Positions 61,012 to 64,000 of a stretch of DNA of 64,000 bases are shown piece after piece. How positions within the stretch are numbered: position 1 is the first letter of the stretch; each line of letters begins with the position of its first letter. Below the pieces are notes generated by a model. The model did no database searches, was not told the DNA's origin, and saw nothing but the letters and a program-made list of their open reading frames with translations. The translations under genes and the position numbers were made by a program. Origin of the DNA: Gallionellales bacterium GWA2_54_124 (lineage in GTDB: Bacteria; Pseudomonadota; Gammaproteobacteria; Burkholderiales; Gallionellaceae); NCBI GenBank assembly GCA_001801025.1, contig MGWO01000004.1, positions 124,001 to 188,000 on the forward strand. Reading direction: 5' to 3'.

Positions 61012-61054
61012 AAACTCACCTTAATATAACTCCGAACTCAGCACTCTGTTGCAT

Positions 61055-63040
61055 TCAGTGATTAGCTTCCAGCCACGCCTGAAACATCAGCACGCACCAA
61101 AGACGGGCCATCCAGTTCCGCTTACCGCTTAAATGCTCGGCCCACATTTGTCTGATTGGAGCGGGATGAAAATAGCCTTCCCGTTGCAGACGCACCTCAT
61201 CCAGCAGCTCCTCTGCCCACTCGCGCAAGGGTCCGCGCAACCAGTCATGCAACGGAACACCGAAACCCATTTTCGGGCGATCGATCAGCTCACGCGGCAC
61301 ATGGCGATACAGCACCTGACGCAAGGGCCATTTTGATTGCCCGTCACGCAACTTATATTCCAGCGGCAGACGCCACGCGAACTCCACGAGCCGGTGGTCC
61401 AGAAACGGCACCCGGCCTTCCAGCGACACGCCCATCCCGGCACGATCAACTTTGGCCAGAATATCATCGGGCAAATAACTGATCGCATCGAGCAGCATCA
61501 TTTGTTCGACTTCTCCCATCCCTTCCAGATCCGGGCGCCCACCCGTCAAGCGAGTTGCCGGCTCTTGCCCGCCGATGACCCAGTCAGCCGGATTTTCAAG
61601 GTGAGAGACCATCCCCAGATACAGCTGATCGACAGTGCGGCTCGCCAGCACTCGCGCCCCCTTGTGCAACTTATCCCCCAACATACTCCAGCGCGCGCCA
61701 CCCGGAATCCGATGTGCCAGCTTATCCCAGGTATCAGGAGATAGCGCCGTAATCCCGCCAGCCGCCAAGACCCGCAGCGGCACCGGCACGGCTGATAACT
61801 TTTTCCACAAACGCTGAGTCAGCACATAGCGGTTGTAACCGCAAAACAACTCGTCTCCCGCATCCCCCGACAATGACACCGTCACATGCTGTTTTGCCAG
61901 CTGACTGACCAAAAAAGTGGGAATCTGCGATGAATCGGCAAACGGCTCGCAATACAATTCGGGCAAGCGCGGAATCACATCCATCGCCTGACGGGGCGTC
62001 ACGTACAGCTCTGTGTGCTCGGTTCCCAGGTGACTCGCGACCGCGCGGGCATGTTCAGCCTCGTTATAGCCCGGCTCATTAAAACCGATCGTGAATGTTT
62101 TGACCGGACGCGACGACTGCGCTTGCATTAAGGCGACCACCGTACTTGAATCTATCCCGCCGGATAAAAACGCACCCAGCGGCACATCCGCCATCATCTG
62201 CTGGCGCACGGCGTCTTTAGCCAGCGACTCCAATGCATCCACCGCCTCATCAGCCGTACCTGAGTAGGGCTGCGCAATACCTGCCTTCGCCACACTGACC
62301 ATATCCCAATATTGACTATGGACAGGCTCAGATTCCATCAACGAGACAGACAATAAACAACCGGGTTCGAGTTTATAAATGTCTTGATAGATCGAATGCG
62401 GGGCGGGAATATAGTTGTGCCTGAGCAATAAGCACAATGCCCCCCGATCAATGTCCGCCGAAAAATCCGGATGCGCCTTGAGGGACTTCAACTCCGAGCC
62501 GAATAAAAACACCCGCTGTGCACCCTCACCCTGCCAGCCGTAGTACAACGGCTTTTCGCCCATACGATCGCGTGCAAGTGTCAGCTTATTCTCGACGCGA
62601 TCCCACAGAGCGATCGCAAACATCCCGATACACTTTTTGAGTGTCGCCTCCAGTCCCCACGTCTCAATTCCAGCCAGCAAGGTTTCGGTATCCGAGTGCC
62701 CAATCCACTCCGCACCCGTCTTTGTATTTCTTTCCTCAGCACTCAGTACTTGGTTTTTATGCTCAGCACTCGTTCTTTCCAGTTCTGTCCTGAGTTTAAG
62801 ATGGTTATAAATTTCCCCGTTAAACGCTATGACATAACGTCCCTGCGCAGACAACATCGGCTGATGACCTGCCGGCGACAAATCCACGATTGCAAGTCGA
62901 CGATGCCCCATATTTATTTTCTGAGCGGCATCGCTCCAATATCCTCCATCGTCAGGGCCGCGCAAATAAATCTGGTCAGCCATACTTCGCAAAACAGCAT
63001 CATCAGCGTTCCCGCCTAAAAACCCGGTCAATCCACACAT
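61055..63040 (-). CDS. asnB: Asparagine synthase (glutamine-hydrolysing) of the EPS locus
   Basis: The enzyme uses glutamine nitrogen to amidate aspartate or, in polysaccharide loci, sugar acids. The 661-residue protein begins MCGLTGFLGG, so Cys2 is the glutaminase nucleophile after Met removal; this decides the start at 63040 rather than the frame opening at 63046. The synthetase half has the PPi loop LSGGIDSSTVVALM and SGDAGDELFCGYNRY. Residues about 90-108 (SAEHKNQVLSAEERNTKTG) have no counterpart in usual AsnB proteins, where ELE is followed within a few residues by the WxGHSDTE motif. That segment is encoded by a CTCAGYACT-type repeat also found downstream at 63.1-63.7 kb. The frame stays open, so the enzyme may be intact. 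Confidence 0.92.
   Translation of the reverse strand: MCGLTGFLGGNADDAVLRSMADQIYLRGPDDGGYWSDAAQKINMGHRRLAIVDLSPAGHQPMLSAQGRYVIAFNGEIYNHLKLRTELERTSAEHKNQVLSAEERNTKTGAEWIGHSDTETLLAGIETWGLEATLKKCIGMFAIALWDRVENKLTLARDRMGEKPLYYGWQGEGAQRVFLFGSELKSLKAHPDFSADIDRGALCLLLRHNYIPAPHSIYQDIYKLEPGCLLSVSLMESEPVHSQYWDMVSVAKAGIAQPYSGTADEAVDALESLAKDAVRQQMMADVPLGAFLSGGIDSSTVVALMQAQSSRPVKTFTIGFNEPGYNEAEHARAVASHLGTEHTELYVTPRQAMDVIPRLPELYCEPFADSSQIPTFLVSQLAKQHVTVSLSGDAGDELFCGYNRYVLTQRLWKKLSAVPVPLRVLAAGGITALSPDTWDKLAHRIPGGARWSMLGDKLHKGARVLASRTVDQLYLGMVSHLENPADWVIGGQEPATRLTGGRPDLEGMGEVEQMMLLDAISYLPDDILAKVDRAGMGVSLEGRVPFLDHRLVEFAWRLPLEYKLRDGQSKWPLRQVLYRHVPRELIDRPKMGFGVPLHDWLRGPLREWAEELLDEVRLQREGYFHPAPIRQMWAEHLSGKRNWMARLWCVLMFQAWLEANH
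62720..62782. repeat. CTCAGYACT-type repeat inserted in the asnB coding region
   Basis: The stretch reads CTTTCCTCAGCACT, CAGTACTTGG, then TTTTTATGCTCAGCACT and CGTTCTTTCC on the plus strand. It shares the core CTCAGCACT/CTCAGTACT and the neighbouring CTTTCC with the repeats at 63127-63180 and 63606-63725. It is read in frame on the minus strand inside the glutaminase domain of asnB. Confidence 0.7.
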
Positions 63041-63126
63041 CAGCAAAGCCCTTTACTCACACTAAGGATTGAATATCTCTACACCGGCAGGCTCAAAATC
63101 AGCCACATTCTTCATTCCCCTCCCCT

Positions 63127-63180
63127 TTTACAGAATCTTTAAGCCCTTTAGCTTTCCTCAGCACTTGTTTTCCCTCAGCA
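63127..63180. repeat. Left flank repeat of the four-helix-bundle gene
   Basis: The stretch begins TTTACAGAAT, continues through CTTTAAGCCCTTTAGCTTTC and contains CTCAGCACTTG and CTCAGCACT. The right flank from 63570 repeats TTTACAGAAT, then CGCCCTTTG and CTCAGCACTTG in the same orientation, so the two form degenerate direct repeats around the gene at 63181-63558. Confidence 0.7.
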
Positions 63181-63558
63181 CTATCTTTTATTCTGTACTG
63201 TCTTTTTAACTGAGGCTCTGAGACCGCCAACCAACCGAGCAACCTCCTCAGCCAGCACAAATATCTCATCGAATGTAGCCCGGTCAATGTAGCCAACATC
63301 AATAGCGACATAAAGCTGACAACGTACTTCAGCACAAGAGGCTTTCGCAACAACCAGAAATTGATGAAACTCCGCCGAACTACTGCGCTCGAACCCCTCG
63401 GCAATATTCGACATAACAGAAACAGCAGCTCGCTGAATTTGATCTTTCAAACCGTAATCTTTAGCGAAAGTACCATGGGTAGAAATACGATAAATCGATG
63501 CGGAAAGCATTCTGGCCTTTTGCCACGCAATCAAATCCTCAAATCGCGAAACCCCCAT
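63181..63558 (-). CDS. Four-helix-bundle protein (S23 / 23S rRNA intervening-sequence family)
   Basis: The 125-residue protein is a small all-helical protein with the family landmarks [13 protein letters not shown] at the start, [38 protein letters not shown] and a C-terminal basic tail ([12 protein letters not shown]). Homologues are found in 23S rRNA intervening sequences, in diversity-generating retroelements (Avd relatives) and dispersed in polysaccharide loci; their function is not settled. It is flanked on both sides by CTCAGYACT repeats and lies 141 bases upstream of asnB in transcription order. It has no clear partner gene in the operon. Confidence 0.9.
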
Positions 63559-63569
63559 ACACCCTCCCG

Positions 63570-63725
63570 GTTTACAGAATATCTACGCCCTTTGTTTCGC
63601 CTTTGCACTCAGCACTTGCCTTTTACTCAGTACTCTGTACTTTGTTTTTCTCAACACTTGCCTTTGTCTCTGTACTTTGTTTTTCTCAGAACTGTTTTTA
63701 CTGCCTTTGTCTCAGTACTTGTTTT
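63570..63725. repeat. Right flank repeat array of the four-helix-bundle gene
   Basis: After TTTACAGAAT the sequence holds about five degenerate copies of a 16-18 base unit of the form CTCWGYACTTTGTTTTT: CTCAGCACTTGCC, CTCAGTACTCTGTACTTTG, CTCAACACTTGCC, CTCTGTACTTTG, CTCAGAACTG and CTCAGTACTTG, spaced by T-rich runs. No other gene lies in this stretch. Confidence 0.75.
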
Positions 63726-64000
63726 TTATCCTTTAACAATCCAGCTAAAGAAATCCACCCAGTTAAAATCCGGAAACACGATGTACGGCGGATACAGTTG
63801 GCCTTTGCGTGAATACATCCCGCGTATCGCCCACCAGGGGTCATTCAGATAACTTGGCATCCCATCAAACTCGGCTGTTCGTTTCCATACATCATCTGCA
63901 TTCACGACCTGACCATCACGCGTCAGCGCAATCCACTCCGTATTTGAATCGACAAACATCCAGCCATGACTGGTTTTTACCTCCGTAATGGCATGTGAGG
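63726..64000 (-). CDS. Transglutaminase-like domain protein, 5' end cut by window edge
   Basis: The frame runs off the window end, so only the C-terminal 91 residues or so are seen. Upstream of an internal ATG at 63959 it continues SHAITEVKTSHGWMFVDSNTEWIA, split here at HAITEV and GWMFVDSN, which is the His and Asp part of a transglutaminase core (HAxxEV ... GWxxVD). The C-terminal tail ends with an aromatic membrane-like segment (FNWVDFFSWIVKG). It is upstream of the four-helix-bundle gene in transcription order, so it may lead this part of the EPS locus. The catalytic Cys lies outside the window. Confidence 0.7.
   Translation of the reverse strand, partial: SHAITEVKTSHGWMFVDSNTEWIALTRDGQVVNADDVWKRTAEFDGMPSYLNDPWWAIRGMYSRKGQLYPPYIVFPDFNWVDFFSWIVKG

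Follow-up and report, generated by a model that had tools for sequence, protein, structure and literature searches.

The window analysed here is a 64,000-nt stretch of the genome of Gallionellales bacterium GWA2_54_124 (contig MGWO01000004.1; G000:C4:124001-188000). Outside 23S rRNA and just upstream of an asnB-like amidotransferase gene, it carries a gene for a 125-residue S23 four-helix-bundle protein, the 23S-rRNA intervening-sequence protein (IVP) of family PF05635, which stands between two arrays of short degenerate repeats (Table 1). We propose that an S23/IVP gene placed between two arrays of a 7-nt unit (8 or 9 nt in some clades) is probably a small mobile element with a very wide distribution, present in the window in decayed form. 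So far, the function of S23/IVP has been unknown, the family having been described from inserts in 23S rRNA, from solved structures and as a relative of Avd.

The window protein scored 121.4 bits against PF05635 (cut-off 33.8) and 110.2 bits against TIGR02436 (cut-off 24), and the solved structures 2gsc and 2rld are related to it. PF05635 was its sole match in a Pfam scan, which returned no enzyme family and no Y1 HUH transposase. A profile search of the whole window genome found this single IVP gene.

The sequence-only reading had described degenerate CTCAGYACT repeats on both sides of the 125-residue gene and a third block of the same family inside asnB, and both observations were confirmed. 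CTCAGYACT occurs 9 times in the window, always on the + strand and always within 61037-63719, against a mean of 0.50 and a maximum of 3 in 100 dinucleotide shuffles of the window. Furthermore, the TTTACAGAAT block at 63118-63165 recurs at 63562-63609 with 75% identity. The word matches the whole genome 47 times and its reversed control 26 times. Of the 47 matches, 13 fall in C4:185037-188890 (window 61037-64890), with one cluster just past the window end, and 2 lie in an epimerase-like gene 20 kb further on (C4:207569-207591), whose block passed the lag-7 scoring strongly, with only lag 7 and its multiple 14. At a strict lag-7 score of 9 or more, the 15 kb around the IVP gene contained two stretches only, the segment of the 5' array given in Table 1 and the cluster past the window end; neither the asnB block nor the 3' flank of the IVP gene reached this score.

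Table 1. Features of the IVP locus in the window
Feature	Position	Strand	Basis
IVP/S23 four-helix-bundle protein gene, 125 aa	63181..63558	-	PF05635 and TIGR02436 profile matches
Array 5' of the IVP gene, AGTACTG/AGTGCTG units (- strand reading), A-rich spacers	63570..63733	.	Repeat reading; lag-7 segment 63624-63645
Array 3' of the IVP gene, overlapping the 3' end of the open reading frame, same orientation as the 5' flank	63118..63199	.	Below lag-7 threshold
Gene-less block of the window unit, in frame within asnB	62735..62770	.	Word count, orthologue comparison
Single CTCAGCACTC copy, just outside the asnB 3' end	61037..61046	.	Word count
asnB-like amidotransferase gene, host of the intragenic block (context, not element)	61055..63046	-	TIGR01536 and TIGR03108 profile scores

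Repeat arms and their units at IVP loci

CTCAGYACT was rejected as a general feature of IVP loci: it was absent from the 30 further loci of the same family that were examined first, and the units differ between loci. These loci are flanked instead by degenerate heptamers, among them GGATTGA, GGATTCG, GTTAGTC, GTAGCTG and AGTGGGA. The exact word is local, and the anatomy of the arms is general. Among 153 loci from many phyla, 142 had an array of lag 7, 8 or 9 within 200 bp of the IVP gene on one or both sides, and 102 had arrays on both, compared with 72 and 4 of 500 random positions, and with 92 and 14 of 387 other open reading frames (ORFs) taken at least 1 kb away in the same loci. Lags of 4, 5, 10, 11 and 13 were found at no more than 4 of the 153 loci. 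No heptamer arm reached the scoring threshold at 25 loci, about half of which have 8- or 9-nt arrays; such units replace the heptamer at L162 (an archaeal contig), L095, L100, L105, L114, L129, L143 and L189. All six scored IVP genes of cyanobacterial plasmids have heptamer arms.

The sample is not random. It includes 80 named loci from many phyla, the best 80 of at least 591 stretches, and 25 of 29 loci from the phylum (four short ones were skipped); of the family loci, 30 were the best-scoring and 20 were chosen by hand from larger contigs. A first-pass figure of 48 of 51 family loci included three duplicates, which were removed from the 153-locus set. The ORF at each locus was picked by motif, and 18 of the 153 frames lacked the exact motif, 16 of these having a close variant. 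At L055 the wrong frame was taken, so that arms and protein are misplaced in the arm, Mantel, neighbour-pair and control counts.

Heptamer arms were present on both sides at 86 loci, a set that does not include the window copy, and were inverted at 79 of them. The unit similarity between the two arms of one locus was 0.79, compared with 0.50 for arms of different loci. Inversion of the arms, the usual state, allows a transcript or one strand of the DNA to form a hairpin whose loop contains the gene; the RNA of one folded element gave z = -4.13, with the arms paired. We interpret the window copy as a decayed version of this element, in which the arms are direct and degenerate. At L080 (G083:C1:1373404-1385712), a near-perfect run of about 17 TTTTAAC units begins about 40 nt after the IVP gene, which suggests a recent expansion.

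To describe how units relate to proteins, we compared unit similarity with IVP identity. As the pairs share related rows and are not independent, the resulting Mantel and pair figures represent a pattern and not a calibrated probability: unit similarity rises with IVP identity among 56 named loci (Mantel r 0.27) and 46 family loci (r 0.60; 0 of 2000 permutations in each case), and IVP pairs of at least 60% identity have a unit similarity of 0.72 when no shared neighbour gene was detected (82 pairs) and 0.74 when one was (161 pairs), over a background of 0.50. In 57 of the 82 pairs the flank was shorter than 2 kb in at least one locus; the 25 pairs with at least 2 kb on both sides of both loci had a mean of 0.73. 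Different IVP subfamilies inside one genome showed a unit similarity of 0.44 (10 pairs), whereas the same subfamily in different genomes showed 0.73 (174 pairs). AGTxCTG or AGGACTG, the units of the window IVP subfamily, stand beside IVPs 64-76% identical to that of the window (L069, L072, L073, L068, L074, L086 and L085); the subfamily carries them in further genera of the same family and in contigs whose titles name Planctomycetota and Thermodesulfovibrionales. These comparisons show that repeat unit and protein clade stay together in different phyla and at different insertion sites.

Filled, empty and gene-less sites

Alignment of related cyanobacterial plasmids showed that orthologous sites exist with and without the element. 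Site A, on conjugative plasmids of Nostocales, is filled in two strains of Trichormus variabilis and in Scytonema NIES-4073; empty counterparts, 97.2-97.8% identical, were found on plasmids of Aulosira, two Nostoc, Microchaete and two Tolypothrix. GTAAT is present on both sides of the insert when the site is filled and once when it is empty (four of the six empty plasmids were read). Variants of site A are a truncated gene in Nostoc C052 and a gene-less hairpin in a more distant Brasilonema plasmid (L374). Site B is filled in the plasmids L377 and L384 and empty in Nostoc C057 (L379), at 91.6% identity; TTCTA flanks the insert in L377, is single in L379, and has an altered right-hand copy in L384. 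The chance of a 5-bp match straddling two random junctions is about 0.007. Moreover, the elements of sites A, B and C (L305, L377 and L376, respectively) are 78-82% identical over approximately 417 bp and have unrelated flanks, and therefore represent one unit of arms plus gene in three contexts. For L302, from Nostoc edaphicum, there was no second record for comparison. Duplicate copies on two Calothrix plasmids have the same surrounding gene order and thus look like shared backbone.

As a separate observation, three arm-bearing IVP genes (L303, L304 and L375) lie within CRISPR loci of cyanobacterial plasmids. Their positions are between cas6 and cas4 (L303 adjoins a type I-D cas1) and between cas10 and cmr3 of a type III-B system.

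Arrays that share IVP units also occur without the gene; sequence searches showed them, many in the form of hairpins, dispersed in intergenic regions and in frame in genes. The AGTRCTGAGTRCTGAGT array, of the window's unit, was found in 21 of 150 family genomes, compared with 2 of 150 for the reversed control. Only one of the 30 AGTRCTGAGTRCTGAGT loci listed was an IVP element, the rest being gene-less, many of them short hairpins, intergenic or in frame in enzymes. AGTRCTGAGTRCTGAGT arrays are present in 5 of the 6 genomes typed as carrying an AGTxCTG-type IVP (the sixth is the window genome) and in 16 of the 144 others (p = 0.0002), an association in which one genome (G081) was recognised via the same search, the elements' own arms are among the matches, and the IVPs of some other genomes are untyped.

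A probable mobile element and its alternatives

Because the arms are general, the unit follows the protein, and filled and empty plasmid sites exist, we interpret gene and arms as a small mobile element. The sequence-only reading had likewise suggested that gene and repeats may be one transposable or recombination-prone unit, moved by an outside factor and perhaps helped by the bundle protein, and had proposed searching for the unit with and without the gene and comparing filled with empty sites. A transposable unit is well supported by the relatives: the same element sits in three contexts, 5-bp direct duplications occur at two plasmid sites, and gene-less arrays exist. The exact word is not shared by the 30 other family loci, and in the window copy the arms are direct and decayed.

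Several points weigh against the mobile-element interpretation. The window flanks carry CTCAGYACT in direct, not inverted, orientation with A-rich spacers; only the arm on the 5' side exceeds the lag-7 threshold, with the word present on both flanks; and no empty site was found for the window copy, the filled/empty evidence coming from plasmid relatives. At 7 of the 86 loci with both heptamer arms, the arms are not inverted. The empty state of site A is possibly a precise loss, because the more distant Brasilonema plasmid already has a gene-less hairpin, and one base differs just beside the junction at site B. The 5-bp duplication was seen at two (A and B) of four alignable plasmid sites only: site B2 shows 3 bp plus 35 extra bp, and at site G (L387) the insert is replaced by 42 unrelated bp in one related plasmid and by a gene-less hairpin in a second one. 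The junctions at C (L376), D (L375 versus PCC 7002) and the gene-less sites E and F gave no clean filled/empty alignment. Furthermore, 6 of the 21 genomes with AGTRCTGAGTRCTGAGT arrays have no IVP match, and the IVP protein is thus dispensable for the persistence of the arrays. Finally, binding of the repeat by the protein is a prediction from the co-variation of unit and protein.

That co-variation nevertheless makes unit recognition a candidate function of IVP. The IVP ring may recognise its own repeat unit as a hairpin, in RNA or single-stranded DNA, and would then act on its own element in cis and on hairpins that lack the gene in trans. For insertion, the target could be opened by the host, with staggered ends about 5 bp apart judging from the two clean sites, and the arms might be lengthened and homogenised by slippage and by copying between inverted arms. 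Insertions in transcribed spacers would be tolerated because the hairpin is excised from the RNA, presumably by RNase III, which cuts the intervening sequence (IVS) of Coxiella burnetii in vitro (PMC4990558).

An immobile alternative holds that the host keeps the arms as hairpins for RNA processing or termination and that IVP is an autoregulator of its operon. The arms do fold, RNase III does cut the Coxiella IVS in vitro, all 25 IVP genes adjoining guaB run in the same direction as guaB, and upstream neighbours are co-directional with IVP at 111 of 136 loci, compared with 315 of 566 in a crude control based on longest-ORF calls. We nonetheless consider this explanation unlikely in view of the patchy presence of IVP (78 of 150 family genomes, with some copies broken), the empty sites, the in-frame copies in MurU-like, epimerase-like and asnB coding sequences, and the same element in unrelated contexts.

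An RNA route of movement that borrows a reverse transcriptase encoded elsewhere, in the way that Avd works with one in diversity-generating retroelements, appears quite unlikely. PF05635 is homologous to Avd, to which IVP is related by sequence and structure alignment (PMC10053308), and insertion is co-directional in operons and also affects rRNA. However, RVT_1 was found in 37 of 78 genomes with IVP and in 28 of 72 without (p = 0.32), and the whole window genome has no RVT_1 match, unlike what is expected for a diversity-generating retroelement. On these counts, dependence on a reverse transcriptase is not supported.

We regard as very unlikely that a Y1 (HUH) transposase of the kind encoded by REP-associated tyrosine transposase (RAYT) genes, REP denoting repetitive extragenic palindromic sequences, moves the hairpins with IVP as an accessory. 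The combination of short palindromic elements and a rare gene resembles the logic of REPINs, and Y1_Tnp is present in 67 of 78 IVP genomes versus 50 of 72 others (p = 0.018), a weak association that may reflect differences in the size and completeness of the genomes; moreover, genome G057 has IVP and dispersed arrays and no Y1 match.

The notion that the arrays are ordinary simple sequence repeats grown by slippage, with IVP genes sharing permissive spots, can draw on the report that, in the majority of genomes surveyed, heptamers are more frequent than other long simple repeats (PMC4679880, citing Mrazek 2007), on spots shared with unrelated repeats (asnB in L195 and L196; a coq7-like site with a RAYT-like gene in G090), on lag-7 arrays without IVP after guaB in many genomes and on the arrays near 92 of 387 control ORFs, but it is highly improbable and largely refuted, as it leaves unexplained the inverted shared unit on both sides of the gene (79/86), the unit that follows the protein without shared neighbours, and the joint absence of arms and gene at empty sites.

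Turning to rRNA, some 23S rRNA inserts appear to be a special case of the IVP element. Two IVP copies of genome G368 (L267 and L268) lie within 23S rRNA genes that are full-length (Rfam LSU model 1-2925). In these inserts, the arm TCAGGGATCAG passes the lag-7 threshold, and the opposite, more degenerate arm CTGATTCCTGA was recognised by eye. Elsewhere in this genome, an intergenic IVP copy has GAGTGAG arms, and GAGTGAG also forms an array without the gene in the rRNA operon. In Coxiella burnetii, the IVS has a 28-bp terminal stem and a strain-variable number of GACAGAT heptamers before the ORF (PMC4990558); the accessible part of that paper treats heptamers of one species only, without generalisation, and recalls earlier suggestions that IVSs are transposition remnants or mobile. 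The IVSs with an S23 ORF in Leptospira, Coxiella and others thus share with the IVP element the protein family, the inverted terminal stem and, in Coxiella, the heptamers, L267 and L268 being IVSs with heptamer arms. In contrast, the window copy and nearly all copies examined lie outside rRNA, between or inside protein genes, and the unit varies by protein clade; the window arms, being direct, form no inverted terminal stem around the ORF.

Other known systems resemble the IVP element in part. REPIN/RAYT systems consist of small palindromic dispersed elements and a rare gene flanked by the same repeats, a likeness to IVP elements; REP ends, however, are not known to be tandem 7-mers as IVP arms are, and RAYTs are HUH (Y1) transposases, whereas the window IVP matches PF05635 only. 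Rickettsia palindromic elements insert in frame into protein genes and, similar to miniature inverted-repeat transposable elements (MITEs), are short inverted-repeat elements, as are IVP elements. The latter differ from both in that the termini are tandem arrays of a short unit, the unit changes between elements, and the IVP gene can occupy the loop. The short tandemly repeated repetitive (STRR) sequences of cyanobacteria are heptanucleotide repeats. Dispersed heptanucleotide repeats have also been described as TAACTGA in Beggiatoaceae (PMC4679880), as GGGAATC in Xanthomonas and Nostoc (PMC4692102), where they are generally not associated with mobile elements, and in elements of Geobacter (PMC2700814). 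All of these share with IVP arms a 7-nt unit that is dispersed and mostly intergenic, and none of the three papers, in its accessible part, ties the repeats to IVP genes. A literature search, with most subscription papers and bioRxiv outside its coverage, found no paper that connects dispersed heptamers with IVP genes as a whole. The IVP family, the IVSs and the heptamer repeats are each already known, and the joining of the three appears to be new.

We see an even chance that, more broadly, S23/IVP is the core of an unrecognised class of mobile elements, spread over many bacterial phyla and at least one archaeal contig, with ends built as inverted arrays of a private unit of 7-9 nt, no nuclease or recombinase of its own and a protein that reads the unit; much of the heptanucleotide and STRR content of genomes would then consist of gene-less copies, and 23S IVSs would be landings in rRNA. 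The private unit beside members of the family makes the nature and origin of IVSs approachable by experiment, through reading of the own 7-mer and movement or stabilisation of hairpins. The element would offer one possible origin for the dispersed heptamers of cyanobacteria, Beggiatoaceae, Geobacter and Xanthomonas and shows where short peptides inserted in frame in conserved enzymes can come from; a protein that reads repeats, with units that can be exchanged, could also be developed into a tool.

In-frame insertions and insertion hot spots

The asnB-like protein of the window scored 435.6 bits against TIGR01536 (cut-off 267.1) and 537.4 bits against TIGR03108, under the cut-off of 816.9 for the latter. 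The gene-less block adds approximately 16-17 residues that are missing from the orthologues L197 and L198, and its presence by chance was rejected on this ground. At the same point (window 62713-62790), the orthologues L195 and L196 have apparent translations of other, unrelated repeats. Because L197 and L198 are empty and L195 and L196 hold other repeats, this loop of asnB is a tolerant hot spot that collects in-frame repeats. Similarly, at one codon position of a MurU-like gene, in-frame arrays of ACTCAGC, GTATCCC, AAATCCC or ACTCCCC are found depending on the species, and other species have none (15 of 30 loci were readable there).

Of 30 genomes read at guaB (L337-L366), 21 have a lag-7 array that begins no more than 100 nt after this gene, and an IVP gene is located there in 7 of the 30. 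The neighbour count covered these 30 guaB places and most IVP rows by script; the remaining rows were read by eye and yielded no further pair. In 7 of the 30 genomes, the array starts at the guaB stop codon, which is TAG and in phase with the 7-nt unit; in the other 23 genomes the stop is TAG in 2 and TAA or TGA in 21. The names guaB, guaA, MurU, coq7, epimerase and RAYT were read from sequence by eye and not from a family search. The spacer between a coq7-like and a cytochrome-like gene holds IVP elements in relatives, and at L237 (G090:C92) it has an apparent RAYT gene with REP-like repeats, also recognised by eye.

A dispersed two-hairpin core of about 60 nt was found at L254-L266, mostly within heptamers of varying unit (L264 has no heptamers). 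Its stems, ATGCC/GGCAT, AGACC/GGTCT and AGGCC/GGCCT, exchange together, that is, with compensating changes. Two copies of the core are present in the window genome, L254 at G000:C7:64640-64719 and L255 at G000:C4:65400-65476.

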